Origin: Bacilli bacterium
Lineage (GTDB): Bacteria; Bacillota_I; Bacilli_A; RF39; UBA660
Direction of reading: 5' to 3'
Assembly (NCBI GenBank): GCA_017550205.1
Contig: JAFZPS010000042.1
Location: 1 to 5,859, forward strand
DNA: 5,859 nucleotides
Shown: one piece after another, positions 2 to 5,784 of the stretch
How positions within the stretch are numbered: the first letter of the stretch is position 1
How the letters are laid out: each line of letters starts with the position of its first letter
Notes under the pieces: model-generated
The model's database searches: none
What the model saw: only the letters and a program-made list of their open reading frames with translations
What the model was told of the DNA's origin: nothing
Made by a program: the position numbers and the translations under genes

Positions 2-1990
2 CCTAATATATTAGTTAATGGTACTACAGGTATTGCTGTTGGTATGGCTACTAATATTCCACCTCATAACTTAGGTGAAGTTATTGATGGATGTGTGGCT
101 TATATTGATAAACCTGAAATAGAACTTGATGAATTAATGAAATATATTAAAGGACCAGATTTTCCTACAGGAGCAATAATCCTTGGAAATAGTGGTATTA
201 GAAAGGCTTATGAAACTGGTCGTGGCTCTATCACAATTCGTAGTAAGGCTAGAATTGAAGAGGAAAATGGCAAACAATTAATTATAATTGATGAAGTTCC
301 ATATGGAATTAATACATTAGAATTAAAAAATAAAGTTGCAGAGCTTGTTCATAATAAGATAATTGATGGAATAGCTGACTATCATTCTGATTTAAAAGAT
401 GGTATTAAGATTACTATTACATTAAAAAGAGATGCAAATGCGCAAGTTGTTTTAAATAAGTTATATAAACATACTGCATTTCAAACATCTTATGGAATTA
501 TCTTCTTAATGCTTGATCAAGGTGTTCCAAAAACATTAGGATTAAAGGAAATAATTGCTAAATATATTGATTATCAAAAAGAAGTTATTATTAGAAGAAC
601 TAAATTTGATTTAGATGTTGCGGAAAAAAGAGTTCATATATTAGAAGGTTTAAAAATAGCCTTAGATAATATTGATGCTGTTATTAAAGTAATTCGTGGA
701 TCTAAAACAGATGAGGATGCAAAGAATGGCTTAATGAATGGATTTGGATTAGACGAAATTCAAGCTAATGCAATACTAGAAATGAAATTAAGACGTTTAA
801 CTGGTTTGGAAAGAAATAAAATAGAAGATGAATTAGCTGATTTATTAAAGACTATAGCTGAATTAAAAGCAATTTTAGCTAGCGAGCAAAAGGTTTTAGA
901 GGTAATTAAAACAGAATTACTTGAAATTAAACAAAAATATGCTGATGAAAGACGTACTAATATTGATATGACAGCTATTGAGTACATTGAAGATGAATCT
1001 TTAATACCAGAAGAAGAAATTATTATCAATTTAACTAAGAATGGTTATATTAAACGTCTTAGAACTGATACATATAAGACTCAAAACCGTGGTGGAGTTG
1101 GAATTAAAGGTATGACAACTAATGAAGAAGACTTCGTAGAACATTTAATTACAATGAATACACATGATTATATATTATTCTTCTCTAATAGAGGTAGAGT
1201 ATATAGAATGAAGGGTTATGAGGTACCAGAGTATTCTAGACAATCTAAGGGATTACCAATAATTAACTTATTACCATTAGAAAAAGATGAGAACATTAGT
1301 TCGATAATTAGTGTTAAACAAGATGATAGTGATGTTAAATATTTAATGTTTGCAACTAAGAATGGTATAGTTAAACGTACTGCTATTGAAGAATTTGATA
1401 GTATTCGTAAGAGTGGCAAGATTGCTATAGTATTAAAAGAAGATGATGAGTTAATTAGTGTAAGAGGTACTTGTGGAAAAAATGAAATAGTTATAGGAGC
1501 AAGTAATGGCCGTCTAGTTAGATTTAAAGAAGATGAGGTTCGTTCTATGGGAAGAAGTTCTTCTGGAGTTAAAGGAATTGAATTAGATGGAGCTCATGTA
1601 GTTGGTGCTGAAGTTGTTGATCCAGGACATATGGTATTAATAGTTACTGAAAATGGTTATGGTAAACAAACAGTTATTGATGAATATAGATTAACTCATA
1701 GAGGTAGCAAAGGTGTTAAAGCATTAAATGTTACTGAAAAGAATGGTCAAATGGCATCACTTAAGTGTTTAGATCCTGAAGTAGAACAAGATTTAATGAT
1801 TATTACTGATAGTGGTATTATTATTAAATTACCATTAGATCAAGTATCTACATTAAAACGTGCTACTCAAGGTGTTAGATTAATTAACTTGAAGGATGAA
1901 CAAAAAGTAGCTACAGTAGCTTTGGTTATTAAAGAAGAAGAATCAGATGAAACTGGGAAAGAAACCAATAATGAAGAAGTAAGTGAATAA
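2..1990 (+). CDS. gyrA: DNA gyrase subunit A, 5'-truncated by the window edge
   Basis: GyrA is the DNA breakage-reunion subunit of the type II topoisomerase that introduces negative supercoils with GyrB. The reading frame is open from base 2 and its first visible residues are PNILVNGTTGIAVGMATNIP, a hallmark of GyrA/ParC, so the first ATG at 44 is internal. About 662 residues are visible; comparison with a family length near 820 implies roughly 160 residues are missing, including the catalytic tyrosine and quinolone-resistance region. Visible parts are the rest of the winged-helix/tower region, the coiled-coil exit gate, and a C-terminal beta-pinwheel with six blade-like repeats (for example LTKNGYIKR, FFSNRGRVYR, ATKNGIVKR, GASNGRLVR, VTENGYGKQ, ITDSGIIIK). 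The GyrA box at 1082-1102 reads QNRGGVG, a variant of Q(R/K)RGG(K/R)G; with the following GIKGMTTNEEDFVEHL it favours GyrA over ParC. The protein ends in an acidic tail (EEESDETGKETNNEEVSE). gyrB is expected just upstream but is not seen. Confidence 0.97.
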   Translation, partial: PNILVNGTTGIAVGMATNIPPHNLGEVIDGCVAYIDKPEIELDELMKYIKGPDFPTGAIILGNSGIRKAYETGRGSITIRSKARIEEENGKQLIIIDEVPYGINTLELKNKVAELVHNKIIDGIADYHSDLKDGIKITITLKRDANAQVVLNKLYKHTAFQTSYGIIFLMLDQGVPKTLGLKEIIAKYIDYQKEVIIRRTKFDLDVAEKRVHILEGLKIALDNIDAVIKVIRGSKTDEDAKNGLMNGFGLDEIQANAILEMKLRRLTGLERNKIEDELADLLKTIAELKAILASEQKVLEVIKTELLEIKQKYADERRTNIDMTAIEYIEDESLIPEEEIIINLTKNGYIKRLRTDTYKTQNRGGVGIKGMTTNEEDFVEHLITMNTHDYILFFSNRGRVYRMKGYEVPEYSRQSKGLPIINLLPLEKDENISSIISVKQDDSDVKYLMFATKNGIVKRTAIEEFDSIRKSGKIAIVLKEDDELISVRGTCGKNEIVIGASNGRLVRFKEDEVRSMGRSSSGVKGIELDGAHVVGAEVVDPGHMVLIVTENGYGKQTVIDEYRLTHRGSKGVKALNVTEKNGQMASLKCLDPEVEQDLMIITDSGIIIKLPLDQVSTLKRATQGVRLINLKDEQKVATVALVIKEEESDETGKETNNEEVSE

Positions 1991-2005: not shown

Positions 2006-2014
2006 ATGCAAAAT

Positions 2015-2030
2015 TATTTCCCGGGAAATA
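2015..2030. other. Noc binding site NBS-1
   Basis: The sequence TATTTCCCGGGAAATA is an exact match to the known Noc site. Here the perfect palindrome extends to 28 bp (2009-2036), longer than at the other sites. Its centre is 36 bp upstream of parS-1. Confidence 0.85.
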
Positions 2031-2050
2031 ATTTTGGAATAAATATATAA

Positions 2051-2066
2051 TGTTTCACGTGAAACG
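2051..2066. other. parS site 1 (one outer base differs)
   Basis: The sequence TGTTTCACGTGAAACG matches parS at 15 of 16 bases. The palindromic 14-base core GTTTCACGTGAAAC (2052-2065) is intact and only the outermost base is G instead of A. ParB binds parS as a dimer and, loaded with CTP, slides onto flanking DNA; this site should still be functional. Confidence 0.87.
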
Positions 2067-2127
2067 TTGAATAAAACTAAAATATTTTATATTAAAATAA
2101 GAAATATACTATTAATCTTTAAAAAAA

Positions 2128-2143
2128 TATTTCCCGGGAAATA
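2128..2143. other. Noc binding site NBS-2
   Basis: An exact copy of TATTTCCCGGGAAATA, preceded by an A tract (2121-2127). Its centre is 36 bp upstream of parS-2, the same spacing as NBS-1 to parS-1. Confidence 0.85.
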
Positions 2144-2163
2144 AAATAGTGATAAAGTTGCAT

Positions 2164-2179
2164 TGTTTCACGTGAAACA
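2164..2179. other. parS site 2 (perfect)
   Basis: TGTTTCACGTGAAACA, a perfect 16-base match to the ParB/Spo0J parS consensus. The downstream flank (tagatagaaat) resembles the flank of parS-3 (tagattaaaat), which suggests the sites spread by local duplication. Confidence 0.92.
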
Positions 2180-2189
2180 TAGATAGAAA

Positions 2190-2205
2190 TATTTCCCGGG
2201 AAATA
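2190..2205. other. Noc binding site NBS-3
   Basis: An exact copy of TATTTCCCGGGAAATA, 26 bp centre-to-centre downstream of parS-2. It is the one NBS that is not followed by a parS at 36-37 bp. Downstream, the right half GGGAAATAAT recurs at 2212-2221 as an isolated half-site. Confidence 0.85.
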
Positions 2206-2230
2206 ATTTATGGGAAATAATGATTAAAAA

Positions 2231-2246
2231 TATTTCCCGGGAAATA
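2231..2246. other. Noc binding site NBS-4
   Basis: An exact copy of TATTTCCCGGGAAATA, with its centre 37 bp upstream of parS-3. The segment from this site to parS-3 closely resembles NBS-1 to parS-1, including the shared flanks AATAATTT and ATATAATGTTTCACGTG. Confidence 0.85.
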
Positions 2247-2267
2247 ATTTAACAATAAAAAATATAA

Positions 2268-2283
2268 TGTTTCACGTGAAACA
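2268..2283. other. parS site 3 (perfect)
   Basis: TGTTTCACGTGAAACA, a perfect parS match and the last palindrome of the array. It ends about 50 bp before the -10 box of the SRP RNA promoter, so ParB loaded here would spread over that promoter unless blocked. Confidence 0.92.
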
Positions 2284-2339: not shown

Positions 2340-2350
2340 AAAATAATAAC

Positions 2351-2421
2351 GTGCAATGAAAGTGATTGAACCAGGTCAGGACGGGAACGTAGCAGCCTTA
2401 AGGTCCTCCTTTCATGTGCAC
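2351..2421 (+). ncRNA. ffs: Signal recognition particle RNA, small bacterial (4.5S-like) type
   Basis: This RNA binds the Ffh GTPase to form the SRP that targets nascent membrane and secreted proteins. The conserved Ffh-binding domain IV core is clear: CCAGGTCAGG (2371-2380), a GGAA tetraloop closed by ACG/CGT (2381-2390), then AGCAGCC (2391-2397). The ends pair: GTGCA (2351-2355) with TGCAC (2417-2421), and ATGAAAG (2356-2362) with CTTTCAT (2409-2415), with one bulged G at 2416. At about 71 nt it is a single hairpin with no room for the Alu domain found in the roughly 270-nt B. subtilis RNA, since the -10 box is just upstream and tadA just downstream. A T run (2423-2427) after the closing helix could serve as its terminator. 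Exact ends are inferred from pairing. Confidence 0.93.
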
Positions 2422-2441
2422 ATTTTTATTTGGAGGATTAT

Positions 2442-2891
2442 ATGGATCAAAAATTCTTAGATTTAGCGTTTAAATATGCTGAAAAGGCTTATAAAAACAA
2501 TGAAGTGCCTATTGGTGCAGTTATTATTAAAAATAATGAAGTAATTGGATATGGTTATAATCAAAAAGAAAAGAAAAATAGTGTTTTAGAACATGCTGAG
2601 ATTATGGCTATTAGAATGGCGTCAAAGAAAATTAATAATTGGAGATTGGATGATTGTGATATATATGTTACATTAGATCCATGTCCTATGTGTGCTAGTG
2701 CTATAAAACAGTCTAGAATTAAGAATATTTATTCTGCTTTAGGTAATTTAGATAAAGAAAATGAAAAAGTAGTTGTGGATATCTTAAAAAAAGATAAAAC
2801 TAATCCGGAAGTTAGTTTAATTTCTAATATTGAACCTGAAAAATCTAAGAAAATTTTAAATTCATTTTTTAGTATAAAAAGAGATAAATAA
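2442..2891 (+). CDS. tadA: tRNA-specific adenosine deaminase TadA
   Basis: TadA deaminates the wobble adenosine-34 of tRNA-Arg(ACG) to inosine so that CGU, CGC and CGA can be read. The 149-residue product has the zinc-dependent cytidine/deoxycytidylate deaminase fold: EVPIGAVI (21-28), the catalytic HAE motif (H51 zinc ligand, E53 proton shuttle), and PCPMC (C81 and C84 zinc ligands), with a C-terminal FFSIKRDK like the family FFRxRR end. Length is typical. The ATG at 2442 is chosen because GGAGG (2432-2436) sits five bases before it; the in-frame TTG at 2430 overlaps that ribosome binding site and is rejected. The motif reads TLDPCPMC where TLEPCPMC is usual, and the later region is less conserved (SALGNLDKEN), but all catalytic residues are present. 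The gene starts 20 bp after the SRP RNA, so it is probably expressed by read-through or from a promoter inside that gene. Confidence 0.93.
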   Translation: MDQKFLDLAFKYAEKAYKNNEVPIGAVIIKNNEVIGYGYNQKEKKNSVLEHAEIMAIRMASKKINNWRLDDCDIYVTLDPCPMCASAIKQSRIKNIYSALGNLDKENEKVVVDILKKDKTNPEVSLISNIEPEKSKKILNSFFSIKRDK

Positions 2892-2931: not shown

Positions 2932-4659
2932 ATGTATCAAGCATTATATCGTAAATACAGACCTAAAGATTTTGATTCAGTTGTTGGACAAACAGCTATA
3001 GTTCAAACTTTAAAGAATTCAATAATTAATCATAATTTTTCTCATGCTTATATGTTCTTTGGACCTAGAGGTACTGGTAAAACTACTATTTCTAAGATAT
3101 TTGCTAGAAATATTAACTGTTTAGATCCTAAAGATGGTATAGCTTGTGGTAAATGTGAACATTGCAAAGTATCTTTTTCTAAGGATTGTATTGATATTAT
3201 TGAAATAGATGCTGCATCTAATAATGGTGTTGACGAGATACGTGAATTAAAGAATAAGATTTCTTTGGTACCTAGTCAATTACAATATAAGGTATATATT
3301 ATCGATGAAGTTCATATGTTATCTATTGGGGCTTTTAATGCTTTACTTAAAACTTTAGAAGAACCTCCAGAACATGCAATATTTATTTTAGCAACTACAG
3401 ATCCTCAAAAAGTACCTGAAACTATTGTTTCTCGTTGTCAATGTTTCTCTTTTAAAAAGATATCTGTGGATACAATAAAAGAAAAACTTGAATCTGTATG
3501 TAAAAATGAAAAGATAAAGATTGATGATGAAGTACTTGAAAATATTGCAGTACTTGCTGATGGTGGATTAAGAGATGCTCTTGGATTATTAGATAAATTA
3601 GTATCTTATACTGATAAGAAGATTACTATGGATGATTTTATTTCTATTAATGGAATCATTTCTAATAAGCAATTAGATGAATTTATTGGTTATATTATGA
3701 ATGGTGATATTGCTAAGGTTTTATCTAGTATCAATGAGTTTGATAATAATGGTAAGAATTTAATTCAAATTATTTCCCAAATACTTAATTATGGTAGAAA
3801 TATAATAGTTAATTACTATTTAAATAATACTAAAACTCCTTATGATATCAATAAATTACAAGAATTTATAAACAGAGTTAACGAAAATATGTTCGATATT
3901 AAAAAGAGTGATAATACTAGAATATTCATAGAAATGTTTATATTAAAGTATATGAGTGAACATACAATATCTAGTGAAAACGTAGTTGTGGAAAAAGAAA
4001 AAGTAGAAATTAAAGAAGAAGAGAAAAAAGAAGTAGTAAAAGAAGAATCTAAAAAAGATGTTGTAGAGGAAACTGTTGAAGAGGATGAAGAATTTGATTT
4101 TTCTAAAGAATATGAAGATACTGAGGAAGAAGTAGAAGATATTCCTTTAAAATCAACTAATTCATTAGTAATATCAATGCCACAAAAGATTTTAAATATA
4201 GATGAAATAATGCAAGTTCGTGTTAATAATACATTAGCTAAGGCTGATAAAAAGTTATTAAAAGAAGAACAAAGTAATTTTGAAAAACTTAAAGATTTTA
4301 CTTTTGATCAAGAGATTGGTTATATAGTTTGTTCTTTATTAGATTCAAAATTAAGAGCTGTAAGTGATAAAAGTATGATTATTAGTTATGAATTAGATTC
4401 AAATGTACTTCAAAACATACAAGTTATAGAGAAAATAATTAGTGTATATAATAAAATAACTGAATCTGATAAAGAAATTGCTATTATTAGTGATTCAGAA
4501 TGGGATAAAGTTAAGAATGAATACATTAAAAACCTAAAAGATGGAGTAAAATATGAGGTTAAGGATGAACCAGAACCTATATTTGAAGAAATAGATAAAG
4601 ATGATATAATATCAAATAGTGCAGTGCAATTATTTGGAGATATTGTTGTAGTAGAATAA
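2932..4659 (+). CDS. dnaX: DNA polymerase III subunit tau (DnaX)
   Basis: DnaX is the ATPase of the clamp loader that places the beta sliding clamp on DNA and bridges the replicative polymerases. The 575-residue protein has the complete AAA+ module: Walker A GPRGTGKT (44-51), four zinc-binding cysteines C63, C72, C75, C78, Walker B DEVH (125-128), sensor 1 ATT (154-156), the SRC arginine-finger motif (167-169) and sensor 2 GGLRDAL (211-217). A collar-like domain III follows to about residue 345. Then comes a charged, Lys/Glu-rich linker (about 347-405) and a C-terminal domain of the tau type (about 410-570). Length is close to the B. subtilis protein. The ATG is preceded by GAGGAGG (2918-2924) at seven bases. 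No in-frame A-AAA-AAG slippery heptamer is seen, so only full-length tau is predicted. It leads the operon with ybaB/ebfC 14 bp downstream. Confidence 0.97.
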   Translation: MYQALYRKYRPKDFDSVVGQTAIVQTLKNSIINHNFSHAYMFFGPRGTGKTTISKIFARNINCLDPKDGIACGKCEHCKVSFSKDCIDIIEIDAASNNGVDEIRELKNKISLVPSQLQYKVYIIDEVHMLSIGAFNALLKTLEEPPEHAIFILATTDPQKVPETIVSRCQCFSFKKISVDTIKEKLESVCKNEKIKIDDEVLENIAVLADGGLRDALGLLDKLVSYTDKKITMDDFISINGIISNKQLDEFIGYIMNGDIAKVLSSINEFDNNGKNLIQIISQILNYGRNIIVNYYLNNTKTPYDINKLQEFINRVNENMFDIKKSDNTRIFIEMFILKYMSEHTISSENVVVEKEKVEIKEEEKKEVVKEESKKDVVEETVEEDEEFDFSKEYEDTEEEVEDIPLKSTNSLVISMPQKILNIDEIMQVRVNNTLAKADKKLLKEEQSNFEKLKDFTFDQEIGYIVCSLLDSKLRAVSDKSMIISYELDSNVLQNIQVIEKIISVYNKITESDKEIAIISDSEWDKVKNEYIKNLKDGVKYEVKDEPEPIFEEIDKDDIISNSAVQLFGDIVVVE

Positions 4660-4673
4660 AGGAGAGATTGATT

Positions 4674-4967
4674 ATGAATATGCAAGCAATGCTTAGACAA
4701 GCACAACAAATGCAAAAAGATATGTTAAAAGCAAAGGAAGAAATTGATAATAGTGAATTTGAAGGTGAAAGTTCTTTTGTTAAAGTAACGTTAAAAGGAG
4801 ATAAAACAGTTAAACAAGTAAAAATAGATGCTAAGTCTTTAGATAAAGAAGATATTGAAGCATTAGAGGATATGATTGTAGTAGCTGTTAATGATGCTAA
4901 TAAAAAAATAGATGCTGAAACTCAAAAGAAAATGGGAAAATTTGGTAATATTCCAGGGTTATTTTAA
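4674..4967 (+). CDS. ybaB: Nucleoid-associated protein, YbaB/EbfC family
   Basis: This 97-residue protein belongs to the YbaB/EbfC family (YaaK in B. subtilis), small dimeric DNA-binding proteins encoded almost always between dnaX and recR. The N-terminal helix is Met/Gln/Lys-rich (MLRQAQQMQKDMLKAKEEI), a beta-sheet core follows (SSFVKVTLKGDKTVKQVKID), then a second helical region (DKEDIEALEDMIVVAVNDANKKID), and it ends in the typical GNIPGLF. The ATG at 4674 is preferred over the in-frame TTG at 4668, because the ribosome binding site AGGAG (4660-4664) is nine bases before the ATG and only three before the TTG. The stop is two bases from the recR start. The exact cellular role of the family is still debated. 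Confidence 0.95.
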   Translation: MNMQAMLRQAQQMQKDMLKAKEEIDNSEFEGESSFVKVTLKGDKTVKQVKIDAKSLDKEDIEALEDMIVVAVNDANKKIDAETQKKMGKFGNIPGLF

Positions 4968-4969
4968 TC

Positions 4970-5566
4970 ATGTATCCAGATAGTATTAAAAATTTAGTTG
5001 AATCTTTTAAATATTTACCTGGTATTGGAGAAAAAACTGCTGAAAGACTAGCTTTTTCTATTTTAGAACTTGAGGATGAACAAATATCTATGTTTTCTGA
5101 AAGTATAAAAGATGTTAAAGAGAAAGTTCATAAATGCAAGAATTGTAATACTTTAACTGATGATGAGTTATGTTTTGTATGTAATGATCCTACTAGAGAT
5201 AGTAAGATATTATGTGTAGTTGAAGATACTAAAAGTGTTTTCTTATTTGAAAAACTTGGTATGTTTCATGGTAAGTATCATGTATTAGATGGTTTGATTT
5301 CACCACTTGATGGTATTAATCCTGAAGATATTGGTTTAAGTAAATTATTGGATCGTATTAAAAATGAGAAGTTTGAAGAGATAATATTTGCGTTTAAACC
5401 TAGTATTGAAGGTGAAACAACATCTTTATACATTAAAAGAGTACTAGAAGATATGAATATTAGAATTACTAGATTAGCTAGTGGTGTTCCTATCGGGGCA
5501 GATATGGAGTATGTGGATAGTCTTACTCTAGAAAGAGCTATTAAAGATAGAAAAGACATAGAATAG
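4970..5566 (+). CDS. recR: Recombination mediator protein RecR
   Basis: RecR works with RecO (and RecF) to load RecA on gapped DNA. The 198-residue product is full length: a helix-hairpin-helix LPGIGEKTAERLAF (16-29), a zinc finger with C56, C59, C68, C71, and a Toprim domain beginning KILCVVED (79-86) with the conserved acidic E85. The C-terminal part has KPSIEGETTSLYI and the Walker-B-like ending ITRLASGVPIGADMEYVD. Two places depart from the usual family text: AFKP where A-T-N-P is common, and GVPIGADMEYVD where GLPVGGDLEYAD is common. The start is only two bases after the ybaB/ebfC stop and has just a weak GGG upstream, so translational coupling is likely. Confidence 0.96.
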   Translation: MYPDSIKNLVESFKYLPGIGEKTAERLAFSILELEDEQISMFSESIKDVKEKVHKCKNCNTLTDDELCFVCNDPTRDSKILCVVEDTKSVFLFEKLGMFHGKYHVLDGLISPLDGINPEDIGLSKLLDRIKNEKFEEIIFAFKPSIEGETTSLYIKRVLEDMNIRITRLASGVPIGADMEYVDSLTLERAIKDRKDIE

Positions 5567-5598: not shown

Positions 5599-5784
5599 AT
5601 GAAAATAGTGAAAAAAGTAATAAAAAGATTTATTTATGCAGCTTTTTTATTATATGGATATAATCTAATATCTGTGGAATTTAATATGATGGTTCCTATT
5701 AATTTATATAATTTAGGATTAGTTATGTTTTTAGGACCTTTTGGGTTAGTATCATTAATTTTATTTAAATATTTAATATTGTGA
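5599..5784 (+). CDS. BofA-like small membrane protein (pro-sigma-K processing inhibitor family)
   Basis: The 61-residue product has a basic start (KIVKKVIKR), a hydrophobic segment (about 11-27) and a second one (about 38-60). The stretch VPINL (32-36) followed by a helix with LGPFG (45-49) and FKYLIL aligns well with the end of B. subtilis BofA (VPINL...LGIPG...IKQFII). In B. subtilis, BofA holds the SpoIVFA/SpoIVFB complex in the forespore outer membrane and inhibits pro-sigma-K cleavage; bofA lies close to recR there, so position supports the call. This version is about 25 residues shorter, lacking the first membrane helix. No better start is visible: in-frame codons back to the recR stop include no ATG, GTG or TTG. 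The ribosome binding site is weak (GGTGA, 5590-5594). Family membership is probable; a sporulation role is inference. Confidence 0.7.
   Translation: MKIVKKVIKRFIYAAFLLYGYNLISVEFNMMVPINLYNLGLVMFLGPFGLVSLILFKYLIL

Follow-up and report, generated by a model that had tools for sequence, protein, structure and literature searches.

ParB and Noc are sister proteins that are thought to act apart, ParB from parS at the origin and Noc from Noc-binding sites (NBS) over much of the chromosome. The question raised by the DNA analyzed here, in which palindromes of both kinds lie side by side in a single intergenic gap, is whether the two proteins may work at one locus. The window, by which we mean the whole stretch of 5859 bases (GC 27%), from a Bacilli bacterium, holds the features below; the palindromes are given without strand.

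Palindromes of two kinds between gyrA and ffs

2..1990, plus strand: gyrA, C-terminal 662 codons, 5' part cut by the window start (Pfam PF00521, PF03989)
2015..2030: NBS-type palindrome TATTTCCCGGGAAATA, copy 1, exact 16-mer match
2051..2066: parS-type palindrome TGTTTCACGTGAAACG, last base A>G, centre 36 bp past NBS 1
2128..2143: NBS-type palindrome TATTTCCCGGGAAATA, copy 2, exact, centre 77 bp past the preceding parS
2164..2179: parS-type palindrome TGTTTCACGTGAAACA, exact, centre 36 bp past NBS 2
2190..2205: NBS-type palindrome TATTTCCCGGGAAATA, copy 3, exact, centre 26 bp past the parS
2231..2246: NBS-type palindrome TATTTCCCGGGAAATA, copy 4, exact, centre 41 bp past NBS 3
2268..2283: parS-type palindrome TGTTTCACGTGAAACA, exact, centre 37 bp past NBS 4
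2345..2430, plus strand: ffs, small SRP RNA, the right border of the array (Rfam RF00169, 60.3 bits)
2430..2891, plus strand: deaminase gene, tadA by position (Pfam PF14437/PF00383; alternative ATG start at 2442)
2932..4659, plus strand: dnaX, the anchor for finding relatives (Pfam PF13177, PF22608)
4668..4967, plus strand: ebfC/ybaB (PF02575)
4970..5566, plus strand: recR (PF21176, PF13662, PF21175)

All seven palindromes lie inside the 354-bp gap from the gyrA stop (1990) to ffs (2345), in the order N P N P N N P (N, NBS type; P, parS type), with centre spacings of 36, 77, 36, 26, 41, and 37 bp. The original prediction had described seven palindromes of two kinds in this gap, and the letters agree: TATTTCCCGGGAAATA is present four times, always exactly, and TGTTTCACGTGAAACA three times, once with its last base altered. 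The TATTTCCCGGGAAATA palindromes we take to be NBS by the B. subtilis Noc-site consensus and the TGTTTCACGTGAAACA palindromes we take to be parS by the parS consensus; the motif identities first proposed are supported on that footing. The NBS core, ATTTCCCGGGAAAT, occurs in four exact copies, and no further match to either 16-mer with up to three mismatches was found in the whole window. From base composition at 27% GC, either 16-mer would be expected about 1.5e-6 times in a window, and we rejected a chance origin of these GC-rich palindromes, as the first reading of the DNA had done. Transcription terminators were also rejected as an explanation, because the palindromes recur as two fixed words across species and not as variable hairpins.

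Beyond recR the window encodes a BofA-like protein of 61 aa (5599-5784; PF07441, 34.4 bits against a cut-off of 26.1). BofA is a sporulation regulator in B. subtilis, and the placement of the BofA-like gene 3' of recR presumably resembles that in B. subtilis.

The best loci of a DnaX scan include uncultured Bacilli and Tenericutes, and genomes in the order of one such match, tentatively RF39, are mostly 0.8-1.7 Mb. DnaX identity to the window is 93-94% for G414, the closest relative compared, and 86% for G400, both of them in the genus of G038, which has 39 genomes. In the alignment of the window with G414, 78 of 80 motif columns are identical as against 114 of 153 spacer columns (p = 2.6e-6). 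Allowing one mismatch in the 14-bp core, we found 81 of 119 loci to carry both motifs within 2.6 kb upstream of dnaX (40 of 69 in a first set that includes the window and 41 of 50 in a second), which is not an order-wide rate because the loci were picked mainly for DnaX similarity to the window, and several of them end within the gap at contig breaks. Exact cores of both motifs are present in 71 of the 119 (35 of 69 and 36 of 50). This comparison of the gap across related genomes, which the original prediction had proposed, leaves one of its statements standing in part: the dense mixed cluster, called unusual, is real here but is not peculiar to this genome, being common in the clade. No report of mixed parS-NBS arrays was found in searches of open PMC papers, judged by title and the opening of the abstract.

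Many of the arrays consist of tandem units of one parS and one NBS each, with a unit length that differs between species (about 52 bp in L138, 126 bp in L150, 115 bp in L151, and 75 bp in L224). These four lengths are near integer helical turns, and the phasing of same-type sites over all arrays is weak. In more distant members of the order, parS alone fills the gap, with NBS found within dnaX or at about 6 kb downstream, so co-location of parS and NBS is not required across the order. Many relatives (L139, L143, L144, L148, L152, L155, L160, and others) have an NBS within the dnaX coding sequence, about +1040 to +1070 from its start, and some of these have another about 5.9-6.1 kb downstream; dnaX of the window has no internal NBS. 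Pure parS arrays occupy the same gap in some relatives, as in L212, where 19 copies at about 37 bp lie upstream of dnaX with no NBS there. Such tandem parS clusters are like the present array in place and unlike it in having neither a second motif nor helical phasing between parS neighbours.

The position near the origin that was originally predicted is supported by relatives, of which G360 serves as the example:

531.0-531.9 kb: parB, then soj
532.8-534.2 kb: noc, then rsmG, mnmG, and mnmE
542.9-544.3 kb, on the other side: dnaA, then dnaN, recF, gyrB, and gyrA (ends 551.8 kb)
552.09-552.39 kb: parS/NBS array, about 8 kb past dnaA
553.07 kb: dnaX

Helical phasing and alternation of unlike neighbours

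Spacings of about 26 bp recur in the arrays. We measured the distances between the centres of neighbouring parS and NBS and scanned them for periods of 7-15, with significance judged against jitter. In the first set, neighbours 20-80 bp apart (n = 61) gave a best period of 10.25 (p < 0.0005), and with the first peak left out the signal persisted (n = 43, p = 0.0025). Neighbouring parS-parS pairs from the same set showed no periodicity (n = 26, p = 0.49). The test was then fixed, at 20-80 bp, a period of 10.5 and a phase of about 4.7, before new species were fetched. The replication set comprised 50 new loci, 20 from a pre-named family and, as a later addition, 30 from the genus of G038; it includes the G414 array, which shares common descent with the window array of the first set. 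Here 64 distances gave a best period of 10.50 and a phase of 5.0 (p < 0.0002), with p < 0.0002 toward the pre-stated phase of 4.7 as well, p values that, like the others reported here, are optimistic because of kinship among the species. Without the first peak the replication set gave p = 0.0002 (n = 51), and widened to 20-120 bp it also gave p = 0.0002 (n = 75) with a best period of 11.0. Steric exclusion alone was rejected as the cause of the spacing, since the phasing persists without the first peak.

The result holds when related arrays are thinned out. With one array per similarity cluster (55 clusters), 88 distances gave R = 0.51 (p < 1e-4). Reduced to one value per array, 31 of 37 arrays in the first set and 31 of 36 in the second were positive, together 62 of 73 (p = 9e-12), relative to a reference phase of 5.0 that was picked after both sets had been seen; the parS-parS control treated in this way was positive in 16 of 33 arrays (p = 0.69). 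At distances of 81-200 bp unlike neighbours showed no phasing (n = 40, p = 0.51), and same-type sites in PNP and NPN units were weakly in phase (p = 0.016 and 0.09; 0.03 each for cluster representatives). The phasing is statistical and not strict (R about 0.45). In the window itself, the short unlike-neighbour spacings of 36, 36, 26, and 37 bp have phases of 4.5 to 5.5, and the fifth (77 bp) has a phase of 3.5.

A phase of about 5 in a period of 10.5 corresponds to half-integer helical turns. A ParB or Noc dimer on a 16-bp palindrome occupies one face of the DNA, and half-integer turns would thus place unlike neighbours on opposite sides. Alternation is also in excess, with 399 of 481 neighbours unlike against 267.5 ± 10.2 after shuffling, an excess that is partly inflated by tandem duplication; in 39 short arrays the count was 87 of 126 against 76.5 (p = 0.017). 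Taken together, the alternation and the restriction of the phasing to unlike, short-range neighbours suggest that occupancy of a site matters to its unlike neighbour. The original prediction had suggested a coupling of the two site types from their proximity in the gap, and phasing with alternation is stronger evidence for it than was then available.

A second ParB paralogue and the whereabouts of NBS

The parB and noc genes called for by the original prediction were looked for in relatives. ParB is present throughout two samples of relatives, one of 20 and one of 12 (11 genomes of the window's genus and G360), and ParB together with a second, Noc-like paralogue in 28 of 32 (16 of 20 and 12 of 12). 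In the 16 a distance of about 2.3-2.6 kb separates the two ParB-family genes; in the loci read, it contains ParA/Soj, and the noc-like gene lies between rsmG and soj-parB. The four relatives with one paralogue are G004 and G008, which have no NBS, and G073 and G138, where the gene is near a contig end. By extension from these relatives, the window's own genome presumably carries ParB and the Noc-like gene too.

Across 288 genomes of the order, 226 have both the Noc-like gene and the exact NBS, 35 the gene only, 7 the NBS only, and 20 neither (p = 5e-11). The matches form a bimodal list, which we divided between 1.2e-76 and 4.0e-75 to score the gene as present or absent, and six borderline genomes were counted as present (G099, G200, and G234 without NBS; G068, G169, and G239 with NBS); moving all six gave p = 9e-12, where species are not independent. 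The exact NBS 14-mer thus occurs in 233 of the 288 genomes, usually in 1-8 copies, as against 2 of 288 for a letter-reversed control. The largest number, 20 copies, is found in G214, whose Noc-like protein (L250) has K at residue 184. Of 66 NBS places in 17 draft genomes with a known dnaX place, 58 are on the dnaX or noc contig, a count that leaves out 3 of 20 genomes without a clear dnaX place (G097, G160, and G273); in six genomes, all 12 copies of the NBS 16-mer are on the dnaX contig, as judged by contig number. We therefore rejected ordinary interspersed repeats as the source of NBS, on the control and on this concentration near the origin, and the scatter of palindromes unrelated to the origin that would have counted against the original prediction was not seen in the relatives.

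Outside the order the picture differs. Of 24 genomes sampled from other groups, mainly from other Bacilli, 5 have the exact NBS 14-mer, in 1-2 copies each. An exact NBS within 30 bp of parS was found in none of 348 genomes from the order of Priestia koreensis, which is partly expected, given how narrow this criterion is (44 of our own 119 loci satisfy it) and how seldom the exact NBS core occurs outside the window's order. In a phylum sample it was found in 4 of 392 genomes, all among the 19 genomes of that sample already known to belong to the window's order, and in none of the remaining 373.

We next compared the two paralogues at the residues that set specificity. The combination Q173, K179, and R201 is present in 22 of 22 second-paralogue loci, which were picked by TIGR00180 and not by residues. 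A separate set of Noc-like proteins was chosen by a GKSQ filter and has Q173 by construction; four Noc-like proteins missed by that filter (L249, L251, L253, and L255) have Q, K, and R by eye. Noc almost invariably has K at both 179 and 184, and among NBS-specific variants about 91% carry K or R at 179 or 184 (PMC7383237). The Noc-like proteins depart from this at residue 184, which in them is mostly S, with S, A, G, N, and K across 27 entries. The ParBs of the order have R173 and mostly G201, and a ParA motif is found in 33 of 35 ParB entries and 0 of 26 Noc-like entries, where the G360 proteins are counted twice (34 and 25 distinct proteins). The best matches of the Noc-like protein among solved structures are Noc (213 bits), ParB 4umk (184), and Spo0J (174). 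In a tree, the 25 Noc-like proteins of the order group with two reference Noc (support 90/88). The grouping may reflect descent shared with Bacillales Noc, as against a separate origin from ParB, but it is blurred by long branches, and an Erysipelotrichaceae Noc is placed elsewhere in the tree; the references that passed the motif filter were three Noc and four ParB rows, two of the latter being the same protein. None of the 288 order genomes passed the 315-bit cut-off of the NCBI Noc model TIGR04285, the best listed scoring 276-294, and the list of 120 homologues gives five source names, all of them ParB-family names.

None of 25 distinct complete Noc-like proteins has the N-terminal membrane-helix motif, which 6 of 7 reference Noc proteins carry; the Noc-like proteins begin directly at the CTPase domain. 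The CTPase and DNA-binding domains are conserved, and before the C-terminal domain there is a long linker of 133 to 313 residues by our own cut. Among 16 close homologues three linker stretches are invariant, LD-LL, ITPAEKIV, and YF; in P0001 these are residues 312-316, 333-340, and 355-356, and the rest is variable. By their sequence conservation these motifs look like docking sites for a partner. An AlphaFold model (mean pLDDT 55.6, low confidence; about 73-86 for residues 91-200, the DNA-binding region) has a recognizable C-terminal domain and a mostly unstructured linker. In an Erysipelotrichaceae genome (G009) a 254-aa Noc-type protein beside ParB, L289, also has no N-terminal helix motif, so that its absence is not confined to the window's order. 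The N-terminal helix is described as necessary for Noc function in B. subtilis (PMC4331003), and purified Noc without the helix does not co-sediment with liposomes (PMC8429893).

A proposed composite centromere and its alternatives

Set beside ParABS as known from B. subtilis Spo0J/Soj and Caulobacter ParB, the relatives have in common exact parS near dnaA, a soj-parB operon, and ParBs with R173, mostly G201, and the ParA motif; what differs is that parS here alternates with NBS in an array that is compact and helically phased. With the Noc/NBS system of B. subtilis and S. aureus they share the palindrome core, the gene between rsmG and soj-parB, Q173/K179/R201, the lack of a ParA motif, and Noc as the closest solved structures. 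They differ from it in having few NBS near the origin, where those of Noc are spread over much of the chromosome except the terminus, and in a protein without the N-terminal amphipathic helix motif, with a long disordered linker carrying short conserved motifs, usually S at residue 184, and scores below the NCBI Noc cut-off.

We propose that the array is probably, though with real room for doubt, a composite origin-proximal centromere at which ParB and the Noc-like clamp load next to each other, one on each face of the DNA. ParB of the Spo0J type would nucleate on the parS palindromes and the Noc-like paralogue on the interleaved NBS. With unlike neighbours about half-integer turns apart (near 26, 36, 46, 57, and 67 bp), two dimers would sit on opposite faces and could be loaded together on what would be a two-faced array. 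As in ParABS, ParA and SMC would be recruited by ParB, and the Noc-like clamp, having no membrane helix, would bring in other partners via its short linker motifs and would mark or position the origin rather than shield the whole nucleoid. We infer that each protein binds its own site, that both are CTP clamps, and that the two site types are occupied simultaneously. The two proteins may contact each other, load cooperatively, or merely avoid one another, and the presumed output may lie in positioning the origin, in a connection to division via a linker partner, or in restraining replication as S. aureus Noc does.

One competing view, that one ParB binds both palindromes and NBS is merely a variant of parS, draws on the small difference between the motifs (4 of 16 positions) and on ParB being the paralogue present in 20 of 20 genomes. 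It would have to explain why NBS and the second paralogue occur together (p = 5e-11), why the one-ParB genomes G004 and G008 have parS arrays and no NBS, and why the paralogues carry separate specificity residues; all 17 ParBs tested favour parS over NBS (PMC7383237), and we regard this view as highly improbable. Two separate systems could instead have settled independently in one permissive origin-near gap, parS and NBS co-locating without any interaction of the proteins, and the distant members of the order that keep parS in the gap and have NBS inside dnaX or about 6 kb downstream speak for such independence. The replicated phasing of unlike sites only, within 80 bp, and the excess alternation nevertheless need a cause that involves both sites, and independence is in our judgement unlikely, while being the least unlikely of these alternatives.

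Classical nucleoid occlusion, in which Noc would spread from NBS, tether origin DNA to the membrane, and block division with parS merely nearby, fits the family membership of the paralogue with its Noc residues, its place between rsmG and soj-parB, and its conserved CTPase and DNA-binding domains, and a membrane partner on the linker could restore tethering. Against it stand the helix motif, absent from 25 of 25 Noc-like proteins and present in 6 of 7 reference Noc, and the NBS, few in number and concentrated near the origin (in 17 genomes, 58 of 66 places on the dnaX or noc contig), not chromosome-wide. We consider this role quite improbable; direct membrane tethering by the Noc-like protein, part of the original prediction, is not supported. 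A slightly poorer prospect still is that the Noc-like protein at NBS controls replication initiation or the expression of gyrA-ffs-dnaX, with the parS array as a local landmark. The array of G360 is about 8 kb past dnaA, and S. aureus Noc is described as restraining initiation (PMC5540599), but the array lies downstream of gyrA, away from the dnaA promoter, and such control by itself leaves the phasing unexplained.

Returning to the composite centromere, a more specific form of it is a heterotypic partition complex with parS on one face and NBS on the other, built by direct contact or mutually dependent clamp loading. We hold this form to be possible and put it forward tentatively; if it is true, this would be a bacterial centromere of two CTPase clamp families instead of one. 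The Noc-like lineage without a membrane helix separates DNA clamping from membrane tethering, and a small-genome clade of Bacilli with alternating, phased sites offers a natural system for the question of cooperative CTP clamp loading.
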